Shown here one piece after another: positions 3,156-59,648 of a stretch of 64,000 bases of DNA; the stretch's first letter is position 1, and the number at the start of each line of letters is the position of its first letter. The stretch comes from Myxococcales bacterium (GTDB taxonomy: Bacteria; Myxococcota_A; Polyangia; Fen-1088), in contig JANXXE010000143.1 in the NCBI GenBank assembly GCA_025350815.1, positions 1 to 64,000 of the forward strand. The letters run 5' to 3'. A program made the position numbers and the translations under genes. Under the pieces are notes generated by a model. The model was not told the origin of the DNA. It did no database searches and worked only from the letters and a program-made list of their open reading frames with translations.

Positions 3156-4124
3156 ATGCGATCAAGAACGCGCGCGCGGGCGCTGTGCCGTTGGACCACG
3201 GTTCCGATTTTGGCGTTCGGCCTGAACGCGTGCGCCGCGCCGGGTCGAACGCCCCTGCCGGACCCGGACCCCGGGGCGGTCGACGACACGCCGGCCGTCA
3301 CCCCGGATGCGTCGCGGCCCGTGCCGCCGGCGACCACCAAGTTCGATGCGCGGGCGATGGATCCGGATGTTGCACCCCGGGTGGAGGTTGACGCCCGTGT
3401 GGTCAGCCCAGGTGACGGCGCAATGGCCGAGGCGGCTGCCATGCCGTCCACGCCCCCGCCAGGTCCGGCGGGTTCCGGCTGCGCGGCGCTGCCGGCCGGC
3501 CAGTGCCTGGACTTCGAAAGTGGTCCGATTGCCGCGCCCTGGTCATACGGCAAGCAGGCCGCCGGCATGCGCATCGACAACGTGCATGCGCACAGCGGAA
3601 AAAGTGCGTTGCACGTGACACTGCCTGCAGGAATGGGCCCGCAGTACGGCTACAGCCTGGGCCGGACGCCCCCGACGAATACCGGCGTCCTTTTTGCGCG
3701 GATGTATTTCTACGCGCCGGCGGCATCGCCGGGCCACGCCATGTTGATCGAGGGCGACGGCGCGGACGGGTCCCAGTATCAGTTCAATATTTTGGGCAAA
3801 TCGTTCATCACCCTGGTCTACAAGGCCGCGCACCTGGGCATGAGTTCGTGCGGCGGCACCTGTGTCGACAAGGACAAGGCGACCGCCCCCATCGGCAAAT
3901 GGGTGTGCCTGGAAACCCAATTCGACGGCAAGACGGGCACGCCGGCCAAGGTGTTCGTCGACGGCGCGCAGTTGTCGTTGAATTACAACGGGCTGGAATA
4001 TCCCGTCGTGGGTTCCTTCCGTCGGATCAATTTCGGTTACGAATTGCACGTAGGCGTGCACAACGGCCTCGACGTGTGGATCGACGACGTCGCGGTCAGC
4101 ACCAGCCGCATCGGCTGCGACTAA
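3156..4124 (+). CDS. lipoprotein with Cip1-like / concanavalin-like carbohydrate-associated domain
   Basis: Start refined to ATG 3156 with RBS gggaggt; lipobox-like LNACA; CLDFESGPIAAPWSYGK...GVLFARMYFYAPA...VDGAQL...IDDVAVS pattern. Confidence 0.7.
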   Translation: MRSRTRARALCRWTTVPILAFGLNACAAPGRTPLPDPDPGAVDDTPAVTPDASRPVPPATTKFDARAMDPDVAPRVEVDARVVSPGDGAMAEAAAMPSTPPPGPAGSGCAALPAGQCLDFESGPIAAPWSYGKQAAGMRIDNVHAHSGKSALHVTLPAGMGPQYGYSLGRTPPTNTGVLFARMYFYAPAASPGHAMLIEGDGADGSQYQFNILGKSFITLVYKAAHLGMSSCGGTCVDKDKATAPIGKWVCLETQFDGKTGTPAKVFVDGAQLSLNYNGLEYPVVGSFRRINFGYELHVGVHNGLDVWIDDVAVSTSRIGCD

Positions 4125-4393
4125 CTTTAGGAGCGTGTCGGCACGGCATGCAGTCGGCCTTCCGTTCGTGACATTTTTCGCGCGTTTCTAGGTCCGCGCA
4201 GGCAACAGCGCTGCAAGGGGTGGCCGTCCACGCAGAGGTTTTTTGTCAGGCGCGGGGCAAGGTGTCAACATCGCGCCCGGTGCAACCTTTGAACGCGCGG
4301 ATTGTGAGTGAGGGCTTTGCCCTCGCGCTGCGCACGTACCCGCGGCCCCGCGCAGTGGCGGTGTGTCAACCGGGCCGTGCGGGGACGTAGCTC

Positions 4394-5959
4394 GTGGCTG
4401 ACTACGAGAAGACCCAGTCACAAAAGGCAGAGAAGGGCCACTTCCCCCTCCTGCGGGCACAGACCCCTGCCGTCGGTATTTCGCGCTACGAGGACCTGGA
4501 AGGTGGCAAGGGACGCGAGGTCTTCTTTCGTCCCATGCGCTACGGTCTGTCCGATTTGGGCTCGCTTCAGCCTGTGGCGCGGATCATCCGCCAGGGACAG
4601 ACCTACGAATGTCGGGTTGTAGACGTTTCCCAGAACGGCGTGGCGTTTCGAACACCAACTGCGCTCATCCTGAAAACGGGCGAGGTATTGGACAATGTGA
4701 CGGTTAGCTTCGATCAGCACGAAGCATACTGTGGTGGTGCGAAGGTCGTGTCACTTCGAGATCTGAACGGCGAACGTGTCGTTGGTGTTTCCTTCAGCGA
4801 CGCCCTTATGAGCATCGAAGACGTCCTCGTCATGCGCGACGTGAAAGCCTGGGGCGGCGAGGGTGCCAGTGGCCTGGGTTTGGCTGGGCGGCCGTGGCAT
4901 ACCCCCGGACACGACCACTTCAAGGCTCTTGTTGCGGAGCTAAGGCTGTTTTTGGAGGATGCACAGAAACAATTCTCCGCCCTTGAGGCCACGTTGCCCT
5001 TTCAGGTTGTACATGGGGATCTTGATTCGCCAGCCCGAAGGGCGCTGATTCATCGCGTTCGTACTGAATTTGTCCCACCCGTCATCCGCTACACCGAACA
5101 AGCAGACGCTGCCTTGCGCCACGCCTCACCCGAAGAGGCTCATGCTCTCCGGGAGTACTCGCTTCGTCAGATACATGAGTTCCTGATGCTGTCGCCACTC
5201 ATGGCTCGTGCCCGCTACAAACCCCTCGGATACCCGGGCGACTTTCAGGTTATGCGCTTCATCTACGAGAGGGAGTTCGAGGGTGCCACCCTGTTTGGCA
5301 AGGCCCTGACCCTTGCATTCACCGAGACCGCCGCGGCCCGTGGCGTAAAGAATCGCAAGGATTTTATCAAGTCCGAGATATTGCAGCGAATAGATTCCCA
5401 CAAAGGGTCGTCGCCAATTCGCATCCTTTCCATCGCCGCCGGTCCGGCCCAGGAAGTCTTCGAGCTTCTAAATGAATTGCCGCAACTTGCATCGCCCATT
5501 GAAGTTGTCCTTTTTGACCAGGAAGAACAGGCCCTTGGTTACGCTTATACGCGTCTCAAACGCCTGACGGAAAGGCGGTGGCCCAAGGCCGTAAAGGTTG
5601 TTTACCGTTACGACACTATAAAGCGCCTTTTGGTTGATCGTCAGATCTTTAGGGATTTCGGTGCCTTTGATATCGTGTTTTCGTGTGGCTTGTTCGATTA
5701 CCTCCAGTCTGCCACGGCCGCCAAGCTCTGTCGGAATCTGTTCTCGTGCGTTGGTGCTGCGGGCAGTCTCTACGCTGGAAACATGGTGCCGCAGCATCCG
5801 ACTCGCTGGTTGATGGAGCACCACCTGGACTGGTTCCTGGTCTATAAAACGCACGAAGAGATGCTGTCATTTGCTCGAAAAGCGGTTCCCAAGGCCGAAG
5901 CGGCCATTGTCGGAGATAGTCTCGGTGTCAATCCCTTCGTCCGCATCGTTCAGGATTGA
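4394..5959 (+). CDS. PilZ-like domain + SAM-dependent methyltransferase, PhcB-type (3-hydroxy fatty acid methyl ester synthase family)
   Basis: N-terminal VVDVSQNGVAF PilZ-like motif; C-terminal ILSIAAGPAQEVFELL...VVLFDQEEQALGYAYTRLK, preceded by RYKPLGYPGDFQVMRFIYEREFEGATLFGKAL, typical of proteins annotated as EF 3-hydroxypalmitic acid methyl ester biosynthesis proteins. Confidence 0.75.
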   Translation: MADYEKTQSQKAEKGHFPLLRAQTPAVGISRYEDLEGGKGREVFFRPMRYGLSDLGSLQPVARIIRQGQTYECRVVDVSQNGVAFRTPTALILKTGEVLDNVTVSFDQHEAYCGGAKVVSLRDLNGERVVGVSFSDALMSIEDVLVMRDVKAWGGEGASGLGLAGRPWHTPGHDHFKALVAELRLFLEDAQKQFSALEATLPFQVVHGDLDSPARRALIHRVRTEFVPPVIRYTEQADAALRHASPEEAHALREYSLRQIHEFLMLSPLMARARYKPLGYPGDFQVMRFIYEREFEGATLFGKALTLAFTETAAARGVKNRKDFIKSEILQRIDSHKGSSPIRILSIAAGPAQEVFELLNELPQLASPIEVVLFDQEEQALGYAYTRLKRLTERRWPKAVKVVYRYDTIKRLLVDRQIFRDFGAFDIVFSCGLFDYLQSATAAKLCRNLFSCVGAAGSLYAGNMVPQHPTRWLMEHHLDWFLVYKTHEEMLSFARKAVPKAEAAIVGDSLGVNPFVRIVQD

Positions 5960-8648
5960 GGCCCCCGGCCCCGTAGGACTGGACAAACGCTGGTCGGCTT
6001 GGCGTCTGGACCGCAATCGCCGTGGCATGAGAACCGCGTTGTGGATTGGCGCCATTCTTTATCCCGCCTTTGGCGTCCTTGATTCTCTGTTGGCCCCGCG
6101 AAATGCCCGACCAGCGCTCTATGCGATGCGCGTAACCTTCACGGTCGTCACGCTGATTCTGTTCAGAGTAATTCGAAAGCCGTTTTTCGAGCGCCATTCT
6201 CATGCGCTGTCCGCCGGATACATATTGTTGGCGTCGTTGGGAATAAGCGTGATGACGGTGTTCATGGGCGGATTATCATCGCCATACTATGCGGGGCTAT
6301 CTTTGGCCATGGTTGCCACAGGATTGCTTTTTGTTTGGCCAGCGCCAGTGGTCGTTGTGACATGCGCTTCCATTGTCGCCGCGTTCATTGTTCCCAATAT
6401 AGTCGTTGGGGCCATAGGCAATGTACAGACCGCCGTATCCAATATGTTCTTCCTGGTGTCGACTGCGATTATCGCATGTGCGGGGCAGATCGTGATGTTT
6501 GCGTCATCGCAAGCCCAGGTTCGCAATCAGATTGTCGTCGAGGAGACCAAGTCCAGGTTAGAAGATGCCCACGCGCAGTTGCAACAACTCGACAAGATCA
6601 AGTCCCAGTTCTTCGCCAACGTCACCCATGAACTGCGAACGCCTCTGACAATGATACTGGCGCCACTGGAAAACATGTTGGCGGGGGATTTCGGCCCGCT
6701 TCAGCCCACGCAGCGTGCCTATCTGGAGGCCAATTGGCGCAACGGGATCCGCCTTCTGAAGCTGATCAATGACTTGCTTGATCTTGCAAAAATAGAAGAG
6801 GGCTTCTTGCGACTTCGAACCGAACAGACAGATTTCGTCCCGTTGCTCAATGAAGTTATCGAATACGCCCGGCCACTGGCGGCGCGCAAGAATCTGTCCC
6901 TCGACCTCGATGTCCAGAATGCCGCGCCCGATCTGCATCTTGATCTCGAAAAGCTGGAGCGGGTCCTGGTCAACCTGATCTCGAACGCCCTGAAGTTCAC
7001 CGAAACCGGGGGCGTCAAGGTCGTGCTGGACTGTGATGACGTGGAAGCCCGCGTGGCCATCGAAGACACCGGGATTGGTATTCCCCACGACCGCATCGGT
7101 GCTGTTTTTGAGCGCTTCAATCAGGGGGATGCCACGGTTACCCGACGTTACGGCGGCACTGGTATCGGTCTTGCGTTCGCGCGTGAGATCGTAGAAATGC
7201 ATGGCGGCCGCATCTCCGTTACCAGCACGCCGGGTCAGGGCAGCCGGTTCGTGATTCACCTGCGTCGGGGCGCGGACCACATTCCCGCCGGGATCCGTGA
7301 TCGACGCCAGTCCGGCACCGGCGGTCACGAACTGAAGCGCACTGAGGACCAAGAGCCGCGTGAGTGGGCCATCCGTCTGCAACGCCAGGATGCCTATCGT
7401 TTTTGCGAAATTGGTCTTGTGACCGAGCGCCGACTGGTGCCGCGCGGTTCCAGTCCGGAAAAGCCGACCCGCGTTCTGGTCGTCGAGGATAATTTCGAGA
7501 TCCTGTCCCTGATTCAACTGCAGTTGCGCGACCACTATGCCGTTTACGTTGCGCAAAACGGCAAGATTGGGCTGGACCTTGCGCGTCGCGACCTTCCCGA
7601 CGTGATTGTCAGCGACTTTACGATGCCAGAAATGGACGGCCTCAGCATGCTGCGCGCCTTGCGAGCTGATCCGAAGACCGCCGAAATACCGTTCATTTTG
7701 TTGACGGCGCGCAATCAACTGGCGGACCGCCTTTCAGCGCGCGAGTCCGGCGCTGATATCTATCTGAGCAAGCCATTCAGTCCCCGTGAGCTTGAAGCTT
7801 CGGTGCGACAGTTGCTCGAAAAAAAAGGACGACAGGTGGGTCACCTCATTCGCGCCCACGTCGAGGGCCTAGAGGCGATCAGCGCCGGTCTTGCCCACGA
7901 AATTCATAATCCACTGAACTACATCAAAAATTCGCACGCTCTGATCGTGGAGAACGTGGCCAAGTTGCGCGAGCTGACGGCCGAAAGGACGGCAGATACG
8001 GCAGACACGGAGCGCTCTGCATCCGTCAAGCGCGCCCAGGAGAAGATCGCGCGCGTGGTGGGGACCGCCAGCCGCGGCATAGAACGCATCGAAAACGTGG
8101 TGGCCCTGGTTCGCCGTTACGCCCGCGAGGGCTACCCGAGTGAGCCGTCGGATGTGCGACTGGACGACACCATAAGGGATGTTGTGGCCCTTATTGCCCC
8201 AAGGGGCGACCAGGAATGCGCATTGACGCTAGATCTCGGCGCGGCCGATACCATCGTTCGCTGCATCCCGGAGGAACTCAGCCAATCTATTCGTGCCCTT
8301 GTTCAGAACGGGTTGGACTCGGTCGGTGTTTCGTCCGGTAAGGTTCTGGTGCGAACCCGACCGGAAGGCGGCAAGGTGCTTTTCGAGGTGCGCGACGATG
8401 GGCCAGGAATCGCGCCGGCGAATCTCAACAAGATCTTCACGCCCTTCTTCACCACGAAGCAAGGCAGCGGCATGGGCCTGGGCCTCGCCATCGTTCACCG
8501 CGTGATCCACGCAGCCGGGGGAACCGTGAAGGTCAGCTCGGTGCCCCACCAGGAAACTGTCTTCTGCGTCGAGTTACCCGTGGTTGCGCCCGAAGGGGTC
8601 ACCATCGCCGGGGCGTCTGTGGGCGCGGGTGATGGCGCACGGCGATAA
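5871..8648 (+). CDS. hybrid sensor kinase: 6TM sensor - HisKA/HATPase - REC - HisKA/HATPase (PhcS-PhcR-like fusion)
   Basis: FFANVTHELRTPLTMI / LVNLISNALKFTE / DTGIGIP / GGTGIGLAFA; REC VLVVEDN...IVSDFTMPEMDG...LTAR...SKPF; second kinase ISAGLAHEIHNPLNYIKN / VRDDGPGI / GSGMGLGLAIV. Start ambiguous: TTG 5871, an in-frame GTG near 5925, or ATG 6027. Confidence 0.88.
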   Translation: MLEKRFPRPKRPLSEIVSVSIPSSASFRIEAPGPVGLDKRWSAWRLDRNRRGMRTALWIGAILYPAFGVLDSLLAPRNARPALYAMRVTFTVVTLILFRVIRKPFFERHSHALSAGYILLASLGISVMTVFMGGLSSPYYAGLSLAMVATGLLFVWPAPVVVVTCASIVAAFIVPNIVVGAIGNVQTAVSNMFFLVSTAIIACAGQIVMFASSQAQVRNQIVVEETKSRLEDAHAQLQQLDKIKSQFFANVTHELRTPLTMILAPLENMLAGDFGPLQPTQRAYLEANWRNGIRLLKLINDLLDLAKIEEGFLRLRTEQTDFVPLLNEVIEYARPLAARKNLSLDLDVQNAAPDLHLDLEKLERVLVNLISNALKFTETGGVKVVLDCDDVEARVAIEDTGIGIPHDRIGAVFERFNQGDATVTRRYGGTGIGLAFAREIVEMHGGRISVTSTPGQGSRFVIHLRRGADHIPAGIRDRRQSGTGGHELKRTEDQEPREWAIRLQRQDAYRFCEIGLVTERRLVPRGSSPEKPTRVLVVEDNFEILSLIQLQLRDHYAVYVAQNGKIGLDLARRDLPDVIVSDFTMPEMDGLSMLRALRADPKTAEIPFILLTARNQLADRLSARESGADIYLSKPFSPRELEASVRQLLEKKGRQVGHLIRAHVEGLEAISAGLAHEIHNPLNYIKNSHALIVENVAKLRELTAERTADTADTERSASVKRAQEKIARVVGTASRGIERIENVVALVRRYAREGYPSEPSDVRLDDTIRDVVALIAPRGDQECALTLDLGAADTIVRCIPEELSQSIRALVQNGLDSVGVSSGKVLVRTRPEGGKVLFEVRDDGPGIAPANLNKIFTPFFTTKQGSGMGLGLAIVHRVIHAAGGTVKVSSVPHQETVFCVELPVVAPEGVTIAGASVGAGDGARR

Positions 8649-8702
8649 GGTTGGTTTCCCGGACGGCCGCTGATTTAAAGCGCGGGTTCAACCGATGGTG
8701 AT

Positions 8703-9329
8703 GTGGCGGTGAGTTCGTTATCCAAGCGTTGGGGACGGCGTCCAGGGGATGTGGGCAACGCAAGCAGCACCCTGCGGTCGGTCACGAATGGTGACGATGC
8801 TGTGCGCCGGGTGCTGGCGGGCGATACCGAGGCTTTCGCGGACATCGTGCGCGAGCACCGCGCGGATGTCTGGAAGGTGGTGGTTGCGATGATGGGGGAC
8901 GAGGCGTCGAGCGATGCCTTGGCCCAGCAGACCTTCATCAACGCATACGAGCGCCTGGATCAATATCGTTGGGGCGATCTGGCCCGCTGGCTGAAAGCCA
9001 TCGCGCGCAATCTGGTCCGCAGCGAGATGCGGCGGCGCAGCCGCGAGATCGAACGCATGCGCCACTACCACGATTACATGGTCGCCTTGTACGAGGACGA
9101 TGACCGGGCCGAGGCGCATGAGCACGCCATGGAAAGGGCGGTGGCCAGCTGCCGCGAGACCATGGCCCCGACTGCAGTGCGGGCGTTGACTCTCTATTAT
9201 GACCAGGGCCTGGTTCTGGCGGACGTGGCCGCGGCGATCGGGCGGTCGTTGGTGGCCACACGCCAGTTGCTGTTCCGGGCGCGCGCGGCCGTGCGCCTGT
9301 GTGCGGAACGAAAGTTGGCGGCCGAATGA
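8703..9329 (+). CDS. ECF-family RNA polymerase sigma factor
   Basis: DALAQQTFINAYERLDQYRWGDLARWLKAIARNLVRSEMRRR; C-terminal region 4-like ALTLYYDQGLVLADVAAAIGRSLVATRQLLFRARAAVR. Confidence 0.88.
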   Translation: MAVSSLSKRWGRRPGDVGNASSTLRSVTNGDDAVRRVLAGDTEAFADIVREHRADVWKVVVAMMGDEASSDALAQQTFINAYERLDQYRWGDLARWLKAIARNLVRSEMRRRSREIERMRHYHDYMVALYEDDDRAEAHEHAMERAVASCRETMAPTAVRALTLYYDQGLVLADVAAAIGRSLVATRQLLFRARAAVRLCAERKLAAE

Positions 9330-10780
9330 ACCGTGTCGCGGACTTGACCGGCCGCTTGATCGACGGCGACCTGACGCCTGAAGATGCGCGCGCCCTGGAC
9401 GAATTGCTGCAGAACGATCCGCAGGCGCGCCGGCTGCACGTGCATTTGTTGGAGGTGGACAAGACGTTGCGCGGCCGCGGCCCGGGTGGCGATGTCACAG
9501 CGTCCGTCATGGCGGCGATTCGCACACGGGCCACAGGTGTTCCGCGGAAATCCGAACGCCTGTCGACAGACAGTTCGGCGACGGTGCGACCCACGCGCCG
9601 GCAGCGTCTCTGGTCGCCCGTGGCGTCTCTGGCGGCCGCCGCGGCGATGGTTCTGGTCGGCGGTGTCGGCTGGCGTTTGGCCCGGCACGCAGCGCCGGCC
9701 GATTCGCCGCAGGCGGCACTTGGCCCAGAAGTATCTGCGACGTCGACGGTGGCTGCCTCTGCCACAGTGGGCGGCACGGTTTCGGCGGTCACGGGCCCCG
9801 CCATTTTGTTGCGCCGGGGCGAGCGCCTGGCCGTGCGGGTAGGTGCAGTGGTTCACGCCGGGGATGCCCTTGAGACCGCCGCGGGCGGTGCCCTGAGTGT
9901 GACGCTGGCGCCGGCGACGCACATCGATCTGGGCCCAACGACTTCCGTGATCATCGGCGCGCCGTTCGTTTTGGACAGCGGAAGCCTCAGTGCCGAGGTC
10001 GCCCCGCAAGATCCGGAACGCCCCCTGGTCTTCATGACGCCGCAGGCGCGGGCGACGGTTTTGGGAACGCGGCTGCAGCTGGCGGTGATTCCGGGGCAGA
10101 CGCGGCTTGAGGTTAGCCGGGGCCTGGTCCTGTTCGAGCGGCTGTCCGACAACAGCTCGGTCGAGGTTTCGGCCGGCAAGAGCGCTTTGGCCATCGAGGG
10201 CGACGGTCAGCGGGCCGCGGCGCGTCCCGATGCCGGTGTCGCGCCTTCCGTGGTCGCCACGACGGTTGCCGACTTCAACGTTGTGGGCGACACCTTGCCG
10301 TCAACTTTCAGTCAGGGGCAGTTGGTCACCGAAGGCTGCCCCGGGGGACGGCCGTCGTGCGTGCTGGGAACCCTGCGAATCGGCGACCGCGCCGCGATCA
10401 GCACGGTGTCGATCGAATCCTTCAAGCCTCCGTTGTTTCGGGCCGCCGCCGCCATGGCGATCACGTTTGACTACTGGATGGGGACGGATGCGAACTCGCT
10501 GATGCTGCAGACATGGGACGATGATCGCGGGCAGAACTACCGCCTCGAACTGTCTGACGTTATCCGCGGGCGCTGGGCGCGGGCCGAGTTTCGCTTGCCC
10601 GATCTGCGCGCCGTGGTCGACGACGCGCGACTGGTGGAAGACGGCGATCGCTTCCTGAACATACTCGTTTTCGGCGGCCGCATCGGCGGACAGCCTTTTT
10701 ACATCGACAACCTCCGCGTTCTCGACTACCCGCCCGGTACCGAACCTGCGCAAAGCGCGACACGCCCACTAGAACCTTAG
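9326..10780 (+). CDS. FecR-domain anti-sigma factor with C-terminal beta-rich output domain
   Basis: ATGA overlap with the sigma factor stop; zinc-less ASD-like N-term, TM, FecR region AVRVGAVVHAGDALETAAGGALSVTLAPATHIDLG...ATVLGTRLQLAV, C-terminal FDYWMGTD...DNLRVLDYP. Confidence 0.85.
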   Translation: MNRVADLTGRLIDGDLTPEDARALDELLQNDPQARRLHVHLLEVDKTLRGRGPGGDVTASVMAAIRTRATGVPRKSERLSTDSSATVRPTRRQRLWSPVASLAAAAAMVLVGGVGWRLARHAAPADSPQAALGPEVSATSTVAASATVGGTVSAVTGPAILLRRGERLAVRVGAVVHAGDALETAAGGALSVTLAPATHIDLGPTTSVIIGAPFVLDSGSLSAEVAPQDPERPLVFMTPQARATVLGTRLQLAVIPGQTRLEVSRGLVLFERLSDNSSVEVSAGKSALAIEGDGQRAAARPDAGVAPSVVATTVADFNVVGDTLPSTFSQGQLVTEGCPGGRPSCVLGTLRIGDRAAISTVSIESFKPPLFRAAAAMAITFDYWMGTDANSLMLQTWDDDRGQNYRLELSDVIRGRWARAEFRLPDLRAVVDDARLVEDGDRFLNILVFGGRIGGQPFYIDNLRVLDYPPGTEPAQSATRPLEP

Positions 10781-10834
10781 CCGTCAGACCACCCAGCGGA
10801 CTGGAAAGCCAGCCTGGAATTTCAAGGAGCTGCA

Positions 10835-12664
10835 ATGACTCAAGGCCATTCCTGCGTCCGAAATCTGCGCCGCGAAGTTTTCGTGCCTGGACCGACAGCT
10901 GCGACCTGGGCGGCCGTCCTGATGGTCGCGTTTGCAGCGTGCACCGGCGCCATCCAGTCGGGCGGTCCCCTCGACGACAATGTCGCGCCGGGTCCGTCGA
11001 GCCCGGGTGGCGGCGCGGCAGGCGGCGGGTCGCCCAAGACCCCTGGCAGCCAGGCCCAGCCACCCACGCCGGGGGCGTTGCCCGCACCATCGGTGCCAGG
11101 CGATCGGCCCGTCAGTCAAACCTGCAAGGCCATCGAGCCGGGACCAACGTTGATTCGCCGGCTCACGCGCCTGGAATACAACAACACCGTCCGCGATTTG
11201 CTGGGCACCATCAGTCAGCCCGCGAACGTTTTCCCCCCCGAGACCGTCGTTCACAGCTTCGACAACGAAGCGGCCTCCCTGACGGCGTCGCCCGTGTTGA
11301 TCGAAGAGTACCTGGGTGCGGCGGAACGTGTGGCCACGGACGCCGTCGACAACCGGCTGATCGCGACGCTGGGCTGCGACCCTGCCAAGGACGGCGAGGA
11401 CGCGTGCGCGGGAAAGTTCTTTGAAAACTTCGGCAAACGCGCGTACCGCCGCCCGCTGACGGCAGAAGATCGCACCATCCTGACGGACGTCTACAACGCC
11501 GGAAAGGTAAACGGAGGATTCAAGGGGGGCATTCGCCTGTCGCTTGCGACCATGCTGGCTTCTGTGCACTTTCTTTACCGCGTCGAGTTCGGCGCCCCGC
11601 CGAAGGCAGGCGAAACCGTGACCAGTCTGACGCCGTGGGAGTTGGCCACACGTCTGTCGTATCTGATCTGGCGCAGCATGCCCGACACGAATCTGCTGGC
11701 CGCCGCCGAGGCCAACAAGCTGACCACCCGAACCGAAGTGGACGCCCAGATCACCCGTATGCTGGCCGATCCCAAGGCGCGGGACACCGTGGCTGATTTT
11801 TACGAGCAGTGGCTGCGCCTGCGTGGCATCGAGACCATCACGAAAGATCCAATGGTCTATCCGGCCTTTCACAGCGACACCGCCGGTCTGATGAAGCAGG
11901 AAACGCTGAAGTTCGTCGACAGCGTCGTGTGGGACGGTGACGGCAGCTTGGCCCAACTTTATACGGCGCCCTTCACATTCGTGAACACGGCGCTGGCGAA
12001 ATACTATGGCCTGCCGGCCCCGGCCGGCGCGGGCTTTGGCAAAGTGTCGGGAGACACGCAGGCGCGCGCCGGTCTGTTGACCCAGGGCGGTCTGATGTCG
12101 GTTCTGGCCCAGGAGAATCAGACCCATCCCATTCGCCGCGGGACCTTCGTTCGCAAGGATCTGCTGTGCCAGACGCTGCTACCCCCGCCGGACGGGATCA
12201 AGATTGAATTTCCGCCGGTCAATGCGACGCTGACGGGGCGCGAACGTTTCGTGCAGCACCGCGCGGATCCGCTGTGCGCCACGTGCCACACGCTGATTGA
12301 TCCGATTGGTTTCGGTTTTGAAAATTTCGACGGCATCGGACAGTTCAGGCGGAAGGAAAACGGCAAGGACATCGACGTCTCGGGCGAGGTCGTGGGTCTC
12401 GCGGGCGGTGGCCAGTTCAACGGAGCCGCCGAACTGGGAGGCCTTCTGGCCAGGTCCGAGGAAGCCGCCAGTTGCGTGGTCGTGGCCTGGTTCCGCTACG
12501 GCTACGGCCGTGATCTGGCGGGTGACGCCGACGCGTGTTCGATGGACATGTTGAAGCGCGCGTTCACGGCATCGAAGTTCAAGATCACCGACTTGATCAC
12601 AACCTTGGCGAGAACTGACGCATTCCAGTTTCGCCGCGTCATCACCCCGGGAGGTTTGCAATGA
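10835..12664 (+). CDS. DUF1592/DUF1588/DUF1585-type protein (planctomycete-cytochrome-like family)
   Basis: LTRLEYNNTVRDLLG (DUF1587), DUF1592 core, LLTQGGLMSVLAQENQTHPIRRGTFVRKDLLC (DUF1588), CATCHTLIDPIGFGFENFDGIGQFR haem-like motif, DUF1585 C-term. Confidence 0.9.
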   Translation: MTQGHSCVRNLRREVFVPGPTAATWAAVLMVAFAACTGAIQSGGPLDDNVAPGPSSPGGGAAGGGSPKTPGSQAQPPTPGALPAPSVPGDRPVSQTCKAIEPGPTLIRRLTRLEYNNTVRDLLGTISQPANVFPPETVVHSFDNEAASLTASPVLIEEYLGAAERVATDAVDNRLIATLGCDPAKDGEDACAGKFFENFGKRAYRRPLTAEDRTILTDVYNAGKVNGGFKGGIRLSLATMLASVHFLYRVEFGAPPKAGETVTSLTPWELATRLSYLIWRSMPDTNLLAAAEANKLTTRTEVDAQITRMLADPKARDTVADFYEQWLRLRGIETITKDPMVYPAFHSDTAGLMKQETLKFVDSVVWDGDGSLAQLYTAPFTFVNTALAKYYGLPAPAGAGFGKVSGDTQARAGLLTQGGLMSVLAQENQTHPIRRGTFVRKDLLCQTLLPPPDGIKIEFPPVNATLTGRERFVQHRADPLCATCHTLIDPIGFGFENFDGIGQFRRKENGKDIDVSGEVVGLAGGGQFNGAAELGGLLARSEEAASCVVVAWFRYGYGRDLAGDADACSMDMLKRAFTASKFKITDLITTLARTDAFQFRRVITPGGLQ

Positions 12665-14025
12665 AGCGCATGAATCGCCGCACGGTGCTCAGAGGACTTG
12701 CCGGCACCACCATCGCACTGCCCTGGCTGGAGGCGATGGACGTTCCGAAGGCACACGGGGCGCCCGGCGTGTCCGACACCGGATTTCCGAAACGCTTCAT
12801 CGTGTGGTCGACCCACAATGGCTTTCATCCCCCGATCTGGAATCCGGGTGGGGGTGAGACCGATTTCGTCCTGCGGCCCGTGCATGCGGCCCTGGAACCG
12901 TTTCGGAAGGATCTTGTCATCGTTGCGGGTCTCAACGATGCGGCGTTTGCCCGGGGCGGCGGGGATCTGCATTCGCGCGGCATGTGCACATTTCTCAGCG
13001 GCACCGAATCAATCGTGAACACAGCGGTGAATACGGGCCTTGGCGGCGAATCAAAGTCGGCAGGCGGGATAACGCTGGATCAAGAGATCGTGAAGCGACT
13101 GGCGCCCAAGACGAAGTTTCCATCGCTGGAGATGAACTTCCTGGATGGCGGTGGGGCCTACGGGACCATCAGTTACCTGGACGCCAACAAACCCCTGCCA
13201 GGAGCGCGCGATCCCGTCACCGTTTTCAATCGAATCTTTGCCGGCGGCACGGGCGGCGGGCCCGTCAGTGATCCAGCGGCCGCGGCGCGACTGCAAGCAG
13301 ACCACCGCTCGATCCTGGACGCCGTCGGGAAGACCTACCAGGGATTGCTGCCGAAGCTGGGCATGGCCGACCGGGACAAGGTCGATTCGCATCTGACCCA
13401 GATTCGCGATCTCGAAAAGCGTCTACAGATTGCATCCCCCGCGGCTGCTGGAAGCCCTGCCGCCAGCGGGTGTCCAAAGACCGTCGCGGCACCAGGCGGA
13501 ACCGACCGGCCCGCGCAAGCGGCGGCCTTTGTCGACATCCTGGCGACGGCGATTGCATGTGACCTGACGCGTGTGTCGTCGATGCAGTGGGATCGCACGA
13601 CGGGCAACAGCGTGTATTCCTGGCTGGGCGTGTCCCGGGGTCACCACGACATGAGCCACGACGGCGATGAAAGAACCGATACGATGGCGGACCTAACGAA
13701 GATTCACACCTTCTACACACAGCACCTGGCAAAGCTGATGACCCGCCTGAAGGCGATCCCCGAGGGCAACGGAACCGCCCTCGACAACACCCTGATCTTG
13801 CAGGCCTGCGATCTGGCCCGTGGCAACCAGGGACACACCGCCACGAACAAGTTCCACATGCTGCTGGGACACGCCGGCGGCGCACTGAAGAACGGCGGGC
13901 GCGTCTTGCGTTACAACGGAGATGCCAACAACAAGCTGTTCGTATCGATTCTGAACATGTTCGATATTCCGGCCACGTCGTTCGGCAATCCGACGTTGCC
14001 GCAGGGGCCACTGGCGCAGCTGTAG
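12661..14025 (+). CDS. DUF1552 domain-containing protein
   Basis: Tat-like RRTVLRGLAGTTIALPWLEAM; ATGA overlap with the DUF1592 gene; standard DUF1592-DUF1552 pairing. Confidence 0.9.
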   Translation: MKRMNRRTVLRGLAGTTIALPWLEAMDVPKAHGAPGVSDTGFPKRFIVWSTHNGFHPPIWNPGGGETDFVLRPVHAALEPFRKDLVIVAGLNDAAFARGGGDLHSRGMCTFLSGTESIVNTAVNTGLGGESKSAGGITLDQEIVKRLAPKTKFPSLEMNFLDGGGAYGTISYLDANKPLPGARDPVTVFNRIFAGGTGGGPVSDPAAAARLQADHRSILDAVGKTYQGLLPKLGMADRDKVDSHLTQIRDLEKRLQIASPAAAGSPAASGCPKTVAAPGGTDRPAQAAAFVDILATAIACDLTRVSSMQWDRTTGNSVYSWLGVSRGHHDMSHDGDERTDTMADLTKIHTFYTQHLAKLMTRLKAIPEGNGTALDNTLILQACDLARGNQGHTATNKFHMLLGHAGGALKNGGRVLRYNGDANNKLFVSILNMFDIPATSFGNPTLPQGPLAQL

Positions 14026-55251: not shown

Positions 55252-56052
55252 ATGCACGTCACACCCTCGTACGATTTCGATCAGTTCTCGGACCGCGACC
55301 GCAAGGCCGAACTGACGCGCCTGCAACGGCAGGCGACGCTGCTGATCGACCGCGAGCTGGCCATGCTGCGCGCGGTGGGCCTGGCCCCGGCAAGCAACGC
55401 CCTGGAGATTGGCTGTGGTCCCGGGTTCTTGACCGGGGCGATAGCCGACGTCGTGGCGCCCGGGAATGCCACAGGCCTCGACACCAGTGCCGAATTGCTC
55501 GAAGCCGCGCGGGCCATGGTTCAGCCCAGGCACCCCAACCTGCGTTTCATCGAGGGCAACGCGTACAGCACGGGTCTGGCCGATGGGACATTTGACTTCG
55601 TCTACAGTCGCCTCGTCTATCAGCACCTCGACAAGCCCGCCGCCGCCTTGCGGGAAGCCCGGCGCATCGTTCGACCGGGCGGCAAGGTGTGTGTGATGGA
55701 TGTGGACGACGGCTGGCTGACGCTGGAGCCGCCTTGCGAGGCCTTCGAAACCTTCACGCGACTGGCGCGCGAGGCGCAGATCACCAACGGGGGCGACCGG
55801 CTGATCGGACGAAAGCTGCCCGGCCTCATGAAGCAGGCCGGGTTCGCGCGGGTCGACCTGCAGGTGATTTCTGCATCGTCACTGGACCTGGGCTTGGCGA
55901 CGTTTCTCGACATCACCACCCGCTTTAAGGCGATCCAGATCAAGACGGCCGAGGCGACCGTGTTGCTGGACGAGATCCAGCGCTTCGCGGTTGCGCATGG
56001 GGATACGGCGCTGGGCGTGGTGGGGGTCTTTGTGGCGGTCGGGACTGTCTGA
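55252..56052 (+). CDS. class I SAM-dependent methyltransferase
   Basis: NALEIGCGPGFLTGAIADVVAPGNATGLDTSAELLEAAR...FDFVYSRLVYQHLDKPAAALREARRIVRPGGKVCVMDVDDGW. Confidence 0.93.
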   Translation: MHVTPSYDFDQFSDRDRKAELTRLQRQATLLIDRELAMLRAVGLAPASNALEIGCGPGFLTGAIADVVAPGNATGLDTSAELLEAARAMVQPRHPNLRFIEGNAYSTGLADGTFDFVYSRLVYQHLDKPAAALREARRIVRPGGKVCVMDVDDGWLTLEPPCEAFETFTRLAREAQITNGGDRLIGRKLPGLMKQAGFARVDLQVISASSLDLGLATFLDITTRFKAIQIKTAEATVLLDEIQRFAVAHGDTALGVVGVFVAVGTV

Positions 56053-56055
56053 AGC

Positions 56056-57195
56056 ATGTTCGCCGACTGGATGACCCGACTGGAAGTCGTGCACCGCGCG
56101 GACAGCCCCGCCGAACGGGATGCGGTCTATCGCTTTCGCTATACGGTCTACGTGGAAGAGCTGCACAAAGCAGTCGCAACGGCCGACCACACGCGACGGT
56201 GGATTCGCGACCCGGAGGATGATCGTCCCGAGAACGTCCTGCTGTACACCGGCACGCCCGATGCCGTGACCGGGACCTTGCGCATGGACATCTGGAATCC
56301 GGGGACGGTACCCGAGCACATTGATCGGCGATTCTCGCTGTCGTTCTTTCCCGAGATTGGCAAGTACACGATTTGCGAGACAGCGCGCTTGATGGTGGCG
56401 CGCAAGCTGCGGGGCAAGCTGATCTTGCCGGCGCTTTCGCGCGAGGCGTACCGCCACGCGGCCGAACGTGAGATCTATTTTCTTTTTGGCTACTGCGCCC
56501 CGGGACTGGTCGGCGCGTATCGGCGCCTCGGTTCACGGCCGTATGCAGGCGATCTCATCTCTGCGGATGACGGCTTGCGCGTGCCTCTCGTCAATCTGAC
56601 GCCTGACGTTCGTTACTACCGCGCGATGAATTCGCCCATGTTGTCGCTGGTGCGCGAATATTACGGCGGCAACAAGACGCTGGACTTCGATCTCAAGCGC
56701 TACGCCCTGCTGGTCGACGGCGCCGGCGCCAGCGAATCCGACGTCGCGGCGCTCTGGGATCAGCTTGAGGAGGAATTGACCGACGAGGGTCAGCCGTCAC
56801 TGTTTGACGATTTGCCGGCGGCGGGTGCCAAGACGCTGCTTGAACAGTCGTACACGCTGGACGTTCGCCCCGGGCAGGTGGTGACGCGCGCTGATCTGGT
56901 CGAGCAGGAAATGTTCATCATCGTCGACGGGACTTTCGAGGTGGTCGCCAGCGATGGCCGCCGCCTGGCCGTGTTGACCAAGGGTGACATGTTCGGCGAG
57001 TTGGCCATGTTCTTGGCGTCCGGTCGTCGGACGGCCTCCATCCGCGCGCGCACGCCGGGCAAAGTGTTGATGCTGCGCCGGAAGTATTTGCGCGAGTTGA
57101 TCGAACGCGATCCGGGCCTGGCATCCCGGGTGTTGTTCAACATTGGCCGCGTCATGGCGGAACGTATGGCTTCACTGATCGAGGCAGGACGCTAA
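56056..57195 (+). CDS. GNAT/autoinducer-synthase-like (LuxI/FeeM-fold) domain fused to cyclic-nucleotide-binding domain
   Basis: N-term YRFRYTVYVEELHK...GTLRMDIW...ICETARLMVARKLRGK; C-term VRPGQVVTRADLVEQEMFIIVDGTFEVV...KGDMFGELAMFLASGRRTASIRA (CNBD). Confidence 0.78.
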   Translation: MFADWMTRLEVVHRADSPAERDAVYRFRYTVYVEELHKAVATADHTRRWIRDPEDDRPENVLLYTGTPDAVTGTLRMDIWNPGTVPEHIDRRFSLSFFPEIGKYTICETARLMVARKLRGKLILPALSREAYRHAAEREIYFLFGYCAPGLVGAYRRLGSRPYAGDLISADDGLRVPLVNLTPDVRYYRAMNSPMLSLVREYYGGNKTLDFDLKRYALLVDGAGASESDVAALWDQLEEELTDEGQPSLFDDLPAAGAKTLLEQSYTLDVRPGQVVTRADLVEQEMFIIVDGTFEVVASDGRRLAVLTKGDMFGELAMFLASGRRTASIRARTPGKVLMLRRKYLRELIERDPGLASRVLFNIGRVMAERMASLIEAGR

Positions 57196-57226
57196 ATGGG
57201 TCTAAATGGGTAAGGAAGGATCGAGC

Positions 57227-57715
57227 ATGAAAACGCTGAGCGCAATTCTGATTTCGATGGCCGTTTCGGGCGCCACCCTGGCATGGGCTGCCGGCCCCAA
57301 AGACGAAGAGGACATCAAGTTCCAGATCGCCGCCTTCGACGAGGCGTGGAACAAGGGCGATCTCGGCGCCCTCGGCGCTTTCTTCACGGACGATGCCACT
57401 CTGATCACGGACGACGCGACGTTGACCGACCCGATGGGGATGGACTTCACCGGGAAGGCCGCCATCATGGAGCACTTCAAGTTCATGCTGACGGGGCCCA
57501 TGAAGGGCAGCAAGCACAAGATGGCAGCGCGGCGGATCCAGTTTGTGGGGCCGGACGTTGCCGTCGGCGACGGATCCATCGAAGTCGGCGGCATGCAGGC
57601 CATGCCCGCTGTCAGGGCCAAGGGCATTGCAGTTTTCGTCAAGATCAAGGGCAAGTGGTTGTACGCATCCCTGCGCGCCTTCGTGCATATGCCTGCGGTC
57701 AGCCCGCGCAAGTAG
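57227..57715 (+). CDS. SnoaL/DUF4440-like NTF2-fold secreted protein
   Basis: Signal peptide; IAAFDEAWNKGDLGALGAFFTDDATLITDDATLTDPMGMDFTGKAAIMEHFKFML. Confidence 0.85.
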   Translation: MKTLSAILISMAVSGATLAWAAGPKDEEDIKFQIAAFDEAWNKGDLGALGAFFTDDATLITDDATLTDPMGMDFTGKAAIMEHFKFMLTGPMKGSKHKMAARRIQFVGPDVAVGDGSIEVGGMQAMPAVRAKGIAVFVKIKGKWLYASLRAFVHMPAVSPRK

Positions 57716-57794
57716 CGGCAGCGACGGTCCGCAGCACCTGCGGCGCCCGTGAGATCTTGACTGTCAGGACCCCTCGGCTAGGGTGACAGCCTCC

Positions 57795-59648
57795 ATGGCT
57801 GGCCTTCTCGCAGTGTCCTGGAAACCGGGTGCCGATCAGGCCGCCAACGCCGTGTTCGACCGCGCCCGTGATTCCTTTGCGCGCCTCAAGGGGCTGTCCT
57901 GTAACGCGGATGTGCGTCGGGCAAGGGTTCGGATCGCCCGCTTTGCCACGCCCGGCGCGCCCAGCCCCGGCATCCACGAAGAAGGGGAATCGCTGGCGGC
58001 CTGTGCGGGTTGGATATTTTTCCGTGGCGCGCGCGTGCCCGCGGCGGAACTTTTGCCAGAGCTTTCGCGGCGCTTTGCCAGCGTCGGGGCACGTGCCCTC
58101 GCCGACTTGCAGGGCCAGTACCTGGCGGTGGTGATGGCCGCGGGTCAGCAGACCCTGAGGGGCGCGGGCGACAAACCCGGATTCTTTCCGGCCTTCGTCA
58201 CCGAGACACCTGATGCCGCCTGGCTGTGCACGTCCTCGATTGTGCTGGCCTCGGCACTGGGGGGCACATTGGATGTCGAGGCATTGCGCGCGCTGTTCAT
58301 GGACAGCACCATCCGCACGCCTCGCAGCGCCTTCGCCGGAATCCGACGGCTGGCCATCGGCGAGGAAGTCGAGCTGACCGATGGAAAACTGCAGGTGGAA
58401 AAGGTGTGGCGACCGTTCTTCTCCACGCGGCCCCTGCGCAGCGTCGCGGATGCGGCTGCAGAGGGTAGCGCGCTGCTCGGCCAGGTTGCTGAGCGGGTGG
58501 CCACGTACTGGCCGAAGCCGATCTGCGATCTGACTTCGGGCCTGGATTCCCGGCTCATCGCTGCGCACATCGCGCCGCTGGTGTCAGATTTCGCCGTGAC
58601 CGTCAGTGGTCCCAGCGGCAACCCAGACGTGGACATTGCGCGTGCCATCGCCGACCGCTTCGGCTGGGAGTTCAACCAGGTGGTCCGCCCGCCCAATTGG
58701 GGACACAAGCGATTGCCGCTTTTCGACCGCTCGATGGCCCTGGTCGATGGCGCCATGTCGGGGCAGGCATTCGAGGCGGTTCTGGATCTGAAGCAAGCCT
58801 TCGCCGGTCGCTTCCAGGCGTGCCTGGGCGGAGGCATCGGTGAGCTGTACAAGGAATTCTTCTGGCAGCAGGAGTCGTGGCGAATTGGCCGCACGTCAAC
58901 TCTTGATGTCCGCCGGTTGTTGCGCTACCGATTCTTCTATTCGTCCGACCCGAACATGTCGTTGTTCGAACAGGATTGGCGCCCTGATTACCTGGCCGAT
59001 CAGGAGAATACGATTCGTCAGATAATCGAGCAGGCGCCGGACGCGCTCAACACGGCCAAGCTTGACGCCACCTATATGTGGAAGCAGTCCGGTCACGCCG
59101 GTCTCTATAACGGTTCCACGAACGCGTTGCTGCCGTCGCCGCTGGTGTTGGGCGTATCCGACCTTCTGGAATTCACGCTGTCGCTGCCGTGGCGATTCCG
59201 GATGCTGGGCGCACTGATGCGCCACATGATCACGCAGGCGAATCCTGCGCTGGCCGCACTGCCCACCTGGTACGGCGGTTCAGCCGAGCCGTTTCGTCTT
59301 TCCCGGCCGCAACACTACGTGCCGTTCTTCGTTGAAACAGCGAAGAAGGTCGTGCGCAAGCTGGGCCAGATCGCCATCAATCACCCCATCTTTCCCGATC
59401 CCATCGATGCTGTGTCCCTGCCGAGCGGATCGTGGGACGAGGATTTCGTCAAGGCGCTGGACGCCCGGAACCTGTTGAACGTGGACCAGTTGCGGTCGGC
59501 AAGTCTGTACCGGGTCGACGGGTTGCGCCGCTTCCTGGATGATATTCGGCAAGGACGGTCTCGCGCGTACCACCAACTGTGGCCCATCGTGTCCGTCGAG
59601 CTCATCTGCCGGCACGCCCAGATCCAGCCGTCGGGCATCCGCCTGTAA
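57795..59648 (+). CDS. asparagine-synthetase-like protein with degenerate glutaminase N-terminus
   Basis: MAGLLAVSW at the position of MCGI; AADDR-like half; PP-loop LTSGLDSRLIAAHI; C-terminal asparagine-synthase-like. Confidence 0.8.
   Translation: MAGLLAVSWKPGADQAANAVFDRARDSFARLKGLSCNADVRRARVRIARFATPGAPSPGIHEEGESLAACAGWIFFRGARVPAAELLPELSRRFASVGARALADLQGQYLAVVMAAGQQTLRGAGDKPGFFPAFVTETPDAAWLCTSSIVLASALGGTLDVEALRALFMDSTIRTPRSAFAGIRRLAIGEEVELTDGKLQVEKVWRPFFSTRPLRSVADAAAEGSALLGQVAERVATYWPKPICDLTSGLDSRLIAAHIAPLVSDFAVTVSGPSGNPDVDIARAIADRFGWEFNQVVRPPNWGHKRLPLFDRSMALVDGAMSGQAFEAVLDLKQAFAGRFQACLGGGIGELYKEFFWQQESWRIGRTSTLDVRRLLRYRFFYSSDPNMSLFEQDWRPDYLADQENTIRQIIEQAPDALNTAKLDATYMWKQSGHAGLYNGSTNALLPSPLVLGVSDLLEFTLSLPWRFRMLGALMRHMITQANPALAALPTWYGGSAEPFRLSRPQHYVPFFVETAKKVVRKLGQIAINHPIFPDPIDAVSLPSGSWDEDFVKALDARNLLNVDQLRSASLYRVDGLRRFLDDIRQGRSRAYHQLWPIVSVELICRHAQIQPSGIRL

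Follow-up and report, generated by a model that had tools for sequence, protein, structure and literature searches.

A FeeM-like N-acyltransferase fused to a cyclic-nucleotide-binding domain, with a methyltransferase partner, as a candidate unit for second-messenger-controlled synthesis of a methylated N-acyl product

What might be made by a myxobacterial gene pair in which a methyltransferase precedes a FeeM-type N-acyltransferase carrying its own cyclic-nucleotide-binding domain (CNBD), and might that synthesis answer to a second messenger? The pair lies on the forward strand of the window, i.e. the whole stretch of 64,000 nucleotides analysed here. The methyltransferase ORF (55252-56052, 266 aa, stop codon TGA at 56050-56052) is separated by 3 bases from the ATG at 56056 of the second ORF (56056-57195, 379 aa), which encodes the fusion. 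An earlier note on this DNA had given both ORFs and their 3-nt spacing correctly, and had read the pair as a route to an N-acyl signal or lipid, possibly methylated, controlled by a cyclic nucleotide; judged from sequence and predicted structure, the evidence used throughout, that interpretation is largely supported. The fusion itself is genuine: the FeeM (PF21926) and cNMP_binding (PF00027) families of Pfam are both matched in the 379-aa protein, and full-length relatives that share its domain order (24-45% identity) occur in many genomes, thus excluding a frameshift or assembly artefact. The relatives' genomes are mostly metagenome-assembled, and their gene starts are approximate since genes were called by a simple script. 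The motifs that had been quoted were all found (RFRY..Y at residues 26-35, GTLRM with R76, ICETARLMV with E108 and R111, and FGELAMFLASGRRTASI at 313-329), and, given the Pfam scores of FeeM, cNMP_binding and Methyltransf_11, their presence is judged to be beyond chance.

The N-terminal domain (56056-56667, residues 1-204) carries the FeeM match at residues 23-165, with 38.5 bits against a gathering cut-off of 27 (E 1.3e-9), and the protein is the only FeeM match in its genome. Because the Foldseek search of the full-length model was dominated by CNBDs and uninformative on this domain, residues 1-204 were modelled separately with AlphaFold2 from 21 sequences (mean pLDDT 93.6). The top PDB match of this model is the acyl-homoserine lactone (AHL) synthase TofI (3p2h, E 5e-9), and chains of FeeM (2g0b, best E 1e-8) fill ranks 2-7, with TM-scores by query length of 0.64-0.69. 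The FeeM TM-scores (0.69 by query, 0.76 by target) are the highest among the matches to TofI, FeeM, BjaI, MesI, RpaI and LasI, the last four of which come next, and generic GNATs and acetyltransferases mostly score lower. The earlier note had named an unrelated acetyltransferase as the match that would speak against its assignment, and TofI and FeeM stand in that place instead. A library of viral structures gave mostly generic GNATs, and the family profile searched against the PDB by sequence alone recovered the AHL synthases TofI (3p2f, E 1e-5) and BjaI (E 5e-4). The domain thus shares fold and family profile with FeeM at 15-19% identity to the solved chains, and differs in the addition of a C-terminal CNBD and a dedicated methyltransferase.

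This closeness in fold to TofI and BjaI makes it necessary to consider a LuxI-type, SAM-using quorum-sensing synthase with an added regulatory domain. The conserved positions of LuxI are R24, F28, W34, D45, D48, R69 and the E and R of the ExxR pair. By profile alignment to TofI, R28, Y32, D52, D55, R76, E108 and R111 are present, so that the domain shares with TofI, BjaI and LasI most of the signature positions as well as the fold; the Trp34 position is occupied by Lys38. Within the family, the RFRYTVYVEE motif (56131-56160, residues 26-35, including R28, Y32 and E35) contains an FRY.VYVE core that is invariant in 21 relatives; R28, Y32 and R119 are retained by every member or very nearly every one, and R76 and E35 are missing from very few. 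The equivalent of the LuxI ExxR pair, E108-T-A-R111 (56377-56388), aligns with the E..SR of TofI in the profile match. Of this claimed resemblance the arginine holds up, R111 being widely kept, but E108 is confined to the close clade and lost across most of the family. The Pfam autoinducer synthase family (PF00765, Autoind_synth) has no match in the 379-aa protein even at E up to 1 and only one weak match among the 21 aligned relatives, whereas the FeeM score exceeds its cut-off. Given the lysine at the Trp position and the unmatched PF00765, the protein is better described as FeeM-like, and we regard an AHL synthase as very unlikely. The acyltransferase associated with PEP-CTERM/exosortase systems (TIGR03694) reaches 17.6 bits in the 379-aa protein, short of its cut-off of 111.95, with weak matches in 19 of 21 relatives.

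The C-terminal CNBD (56827-57192, about residues 258-379) is matched by PF00027 at 270-352 (65.3 bits, E 5e-18), and the full-length AlphaFold2 model resembles the CNBDs of CNG, HCN, SthK and CRP proteins. Among 21 aligned relatives, cNMP_binding and FeeM are each found in 18 (E up to 0.01). The phosphate-binding cassette FGELAMFLASGRRTASI (56992-57042, residues 313-329) aligns with those of cGMP- and cAMP-binding proteins of solved structure, G314, E315 and R325 included, so that the CNBD, which the earlier note thought might prove to lack ligand-binding residues, retains the Gly-Glu...Arg signature. E315 and R325 are kept in members from Myxococcota, proteobacteria and acidobacteria, and the cyanobacterial and Bacillota members no longer have the cassette arginine; a response to cyclic nucleotides is therefore likely in only part of the family, and such control would not be universal. 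The C-helix (57112-57189, residues 353-378 in the model) includes E369-R370, invariant in the close clade. An alignment that is ungapped from R325 through P353 places R370 and M371 at the positions of CRP Thr127 and Ser128. Ser128 of CRP specifies adenine, an Asn in the same place (Asn143 of PycTIR) uracil, and a Glu in XC_0249 guanine (PMC11224242). With Ser, Asn and Glu all absent from this position of the 379-aa protein, the base of the nucleotide cannot be called; the Met371 found in place of the uracil-specifying Asn argues against a cUMP receptor of the PycTIR type, as far as these residues indicate.

A GNAT-fold domain joined to a CNBD is also the architecture of Rv0998 (MtPatA), the cAMP-regulated lysine acetyltransferase of Mycobacterium tuberculosis, in which cAMP allosterically regulates the GNAT domain, a case of direct second-messenger control (PMC4964394). 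The 379-aa protein could by this precedent be a Pat-like enzyme that acylates a protein instead of a small molecule, both domain types being shared. The NCBIfam equivalog for Pat matches weakly, at 22.8 bits against a cut-off of 460 and on the CNBD part only. The domain order is however opposite, with the CNBD first in Rv0998 and last here, and the N-domain resembles FeeM and the AHL synthases more than it does protein acetyltransferases such as the catalytic domain of Rv0998, which is not FeeM-like. We know of no methyltransferase partner for Rv0998, and the methyltransferase partnership of the present gene, together with the acyl-activating and lipid-handling neighbours of its relatives described below, points to small-molecule chemistry. 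A protein substrate thus seems quite unlikely, and acylation of a small molecule is preferred.

The upstream ORF is a class I SAM-dependent methyltransferase (Methyltransf_11, 83 bits); subtyping with NCBIfam gave BioC and UbiE-like families as best matches, far under cut-off. Its association with the FeeM-CNBD gene can be seen from a search for the methyltransferase that was run independently of FeeM in 378 genomes sampled from the phylum. This returned 28 matches, of which all nine above 190 bits adjoin a FeeM-CNBD gene, two weaker ones fall within a FeeM-CNBD-methyltransferase ORF, and the other 17 show no such linkage. Three arrangements of the partner are found. Immediately upstream of FeeM-CNBD, it occurs in a seven-member clade (97/87) made up of the window and loci L051, L105, L106, L107, L108 and L082, whose methyltransferases are 51-63% identical to that of the window. 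Immediately downstream, a homologue of 43% identity is found in L057. Lastly, it forms the C-terminal part of a fusion with FeeM-CNBD in another clade (97/93), made up of L120, L126, L124, L125:15163-17193, L025 (the same ORF as L137) and L140, with single polypeptides in three genomes (G502, G477 and G103); in some of these fusions the Pfam FeeM match is below cut-off or absent, and the domain is seen only by generic GNAT models or the family profile. The upstream and fused groups are placed apart in the FeeM tree, which for the members of the upstream group is broadly matched by the methyltransferase tree. Chance adjacency does not explain three arrangements of one partner and, on these sequence grounds, the methyltransferase is taken to be a dedicated partner of the FeeM-CNBD gene. 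The coupling proposed in the earlier note therefore gains strong support from conserved adjacency, fusion and broadly congruent trees. One genome also holds a second FeeM-CNBD copy beside its own methyltransferase (L169, G501:C239), which is interrupted by an in-frame TAG and seems to be continued on another short contig; it appears to be a broken gene or an assembly artefact.

Cyclic-nucleotide control finds independent support in the genes that follow FeeM-CNBD in three relatives. In L106 the methyltransferase is followed by FeeM-CNBD and then by a class III nucleotide cyclase, each gene overlapping the next by 4 nt (ATGA and GTGA); the genes of L108 are arranged likewise, the cyclase overlapping its predecessor by 4 nt; and in L051, 15 nt separate FeeM-CNBD from the start of the cyclase. 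Synthesis of the second messenger is thus physically linked to the FeeM-CNBD gene, and of all the evidence this linkage speaks most strongly for the CNBD as a real receptor. The cyclases of L051 and L106 carry a GAF domain and an extra N-terminal region, and the relatives' cyclase domains conserve the two metal-binding Asp residues as well as the positions with Lys and Thr that mark adenylyl cyclases. The genome of the window has one detected class III cyclase (G000:C166), on a different contig and not adjacent to FeeM-CNBD.

A class III cyclase gene beside a CNBD receptor gene is also the layout of the Pycsar anti-phage systems (PycC and PycTIR), and the PADLOC models for PycTIR and PycC recognise the CNBD and the cyclase domain. 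The cyclase could accordingly signal infection to an acyltransferase acting as the CNBD effector. These matches span only the domains that the two kinds of system share, however, and the TIR or membrane effector is replaced by FeeM, with a methyltransferase alongside; FeeM and the CNBD are the only domains found by Pfam in the 379-aa protein, with no TIR or transmembrane effector domain. Met371 takes the place of the uracil-specifying Asn143 of PycTIR. The relatives' cyclases have, besides GAF, further N-terminal regions, and their Lys and Thr residues are typical of adenylyl cyclases by the general rule given above. A role in anti-phage defence is therefore most improbable, and a metabolic role under second-messenger control is preferred.

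The fusion is no isolated case. Its profile was matched in 30 of the 378 genomes sampled from the phylum, and a scan of a genome collection gave 24 loci in Myxococcota, Alpha- and Betaproteobacteria, Cyanobacteriota, Acidobacteriota, Bacillota and Verrucomicrobiota, most of them with a CNBD, which is absent from the verrucomicrobial and Roseomonas loci. Named records of the fusion include Pseudomonadota, Cyanobacteriota, Acidobacteriota and Bacillota. A three-row alignment of close N-domains served as query in the profile search of genome contigs. In the window's own family, the 17 genomes sampled gave no match to the FeeM-type N-domain, and the locus thus appears to be sporadic there. Literature searches, made in a library without most subscription papers, returned no description of the FeeM-CNBD architecture, and the bare domain combination may be listed somewhere undescribed; what is new here is the fusion as a family, its dedicated methyltransferase partner and the co-encoded cyclase in three relatives.

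Some relatives are paired with other enzymes (haem-oxygenase-like proteins, an AMP-ligase with an SDR, or a patatin with a PlsC-like protein), so the FeeM-CNBD core does not by itself dictate the final product. Haem-oxygenase-like iron enzymes (PF14518) recur beside FeeM-like genes (L059:964-1605, L062:7309-7962, L063:173-736, L066:7330-7968 and L070:4269-5720), directly preceding FeeM-CNBD in loci from proteobacteria, acidobacteria and myxobacteria, and a verrucomicrobial locus has the PF14518 domain fused to FeeM without a CNBD; at the sequence level this pairing suggests a family of oxidised N-acyl products. The cyanobacterial FeeM-CNBD genes, whose cassette arginine is lost, are followed by a conserved 230-aa protein that is distantly haem-oxygenase-like (L058:3111-3824, L061:9213-9902 and L065:4770-5468). 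In one myxococcal genus an AMP-ligase, identified by Pfam, and a thioester-reductase-like SDR, identified by eye, precede FeeM-CNBD and replace the methyltransferase (L052:5148-6878, L067:4649-6655 and L004:366-1487). Sporomusa acidovorans has a protein with a B12-binding domain right after FeeM-CNBD (L074:9100-10842) and a PAS histidine kinase before it. Caenimonas sedimenti (L054) has FeeM-CNBD followed by a CNBD-patatin phospholipase with two CNBD stretches and a PlsC-like acyltransferase (9148-11364 and 11409-11999), i.e. two adjoining CNBD enzymes in a lipid context.

The last arrangement, with a PlsC-like O-acyltransferase and a CNBD-patatin downstream, bears on the possibility that the FeeM-like domain is the first enzyme of an N-acyl aminolipid pathway, like OlsB or GlsB, whose product would be a membrane lipid headgroup that is later methylated and not secreted. 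Aminolipids can indeed be methylated after synthesis (PMC11631085), and the ornithine N-acyltransferase OlsB (NCBIfam equivalog NF052554) gives weak matches in 14 of 21 members. Its score in the 379-aa protein is however far under the curated cut-off (21.4 against 350 bits), and no O-acyltransferase was recognised beside the window pair or in the close methyltransferase clade in the stretches examined. We consider an aminolipid product unlikely, and a methylated N-acylated small molecule remains the preferred reading.

Two genes that follow the pair in the window, a SnoaL-like gene (57206-57715) and an asparagine-synthase-like gene (57783-59648), were set aside as pathway members because neither recurs beside the relatives. 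The former seems to begin with a signal peptide, and the latter, shortly after it, encodes a 621-aa protein with a weak match to the albusnodin/ikarugamycin macrolactam-cyclase family (49.7 bits, far under cut-off). Elsewhere in the window, the region 4000-8650, which includes an 873-aa hybrid histidine kinase, is lower in G+C (0.57-0.58, against 0.63-0.69 elsewhere), and at 10835-14025 a PSD/PSCyt-type gene (DUF1592/1588/1587) adjoins a DUF1552 gene.

We propose, with a probability of roughly 0.55, that the pair is a two-gene unit whose product is a methylated N-acylated small molecule and whose activity is controlled by a second messenger. The N-domain, of predicted fold and with a chemistry suggested by FeeM, would use acyl-ACP or acyl-CoA as donor and acylate the amino group of an amino acid, or of another amine, with a fatty chain. 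The CNBD, to judge from the cassette present in its sequence, would bind a cyclic nucleotide, with cAMP and cGMP the likeliest ligands, and binding may switch the acyltransferase allosterically, as CNBD biology and the precedent of Rv0998 suggest. The methyltransferase, its gene being translationally linked, would act in the same pathway; as the simplest guess, its target would be the free carboxylate of the N-acyl amino acid. The product may then be an N-acyl amino acid methyl ester (NAME) that diffuses or acts on membranes. As of 2024 the genes for NAME biosynthesis had still to be identified (PMC11580390), making a gene-level comparison with the present pair impossible. Among N-acyl tyrosine clusters (those of the stieleriacines, and Tyz of M. 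tuberculosis), the stieleriacine type uses ThiF and nitroreductase partners, and a CNBD fusion is not among the features described in the consulted part of the source (PMC10404671).

Relatives carry the three functions in one polypeptide or co-encode a nucleotide cyclase; the only class III cyclase detected in the genome of the window lies elsewhere. The FeeM-CNBD-methyltransferase fusions and the three-gene cyclase operon make the idea testable with one small construct. Synthesis of N-acyl metabolites is usually thought to be controlled by transcription. If the proposal is true, a cyclic-nucleotide receptor built into a FeeM-type enzyme would tie the level of a second messenger directly to the output of a lipid-like metabolite.
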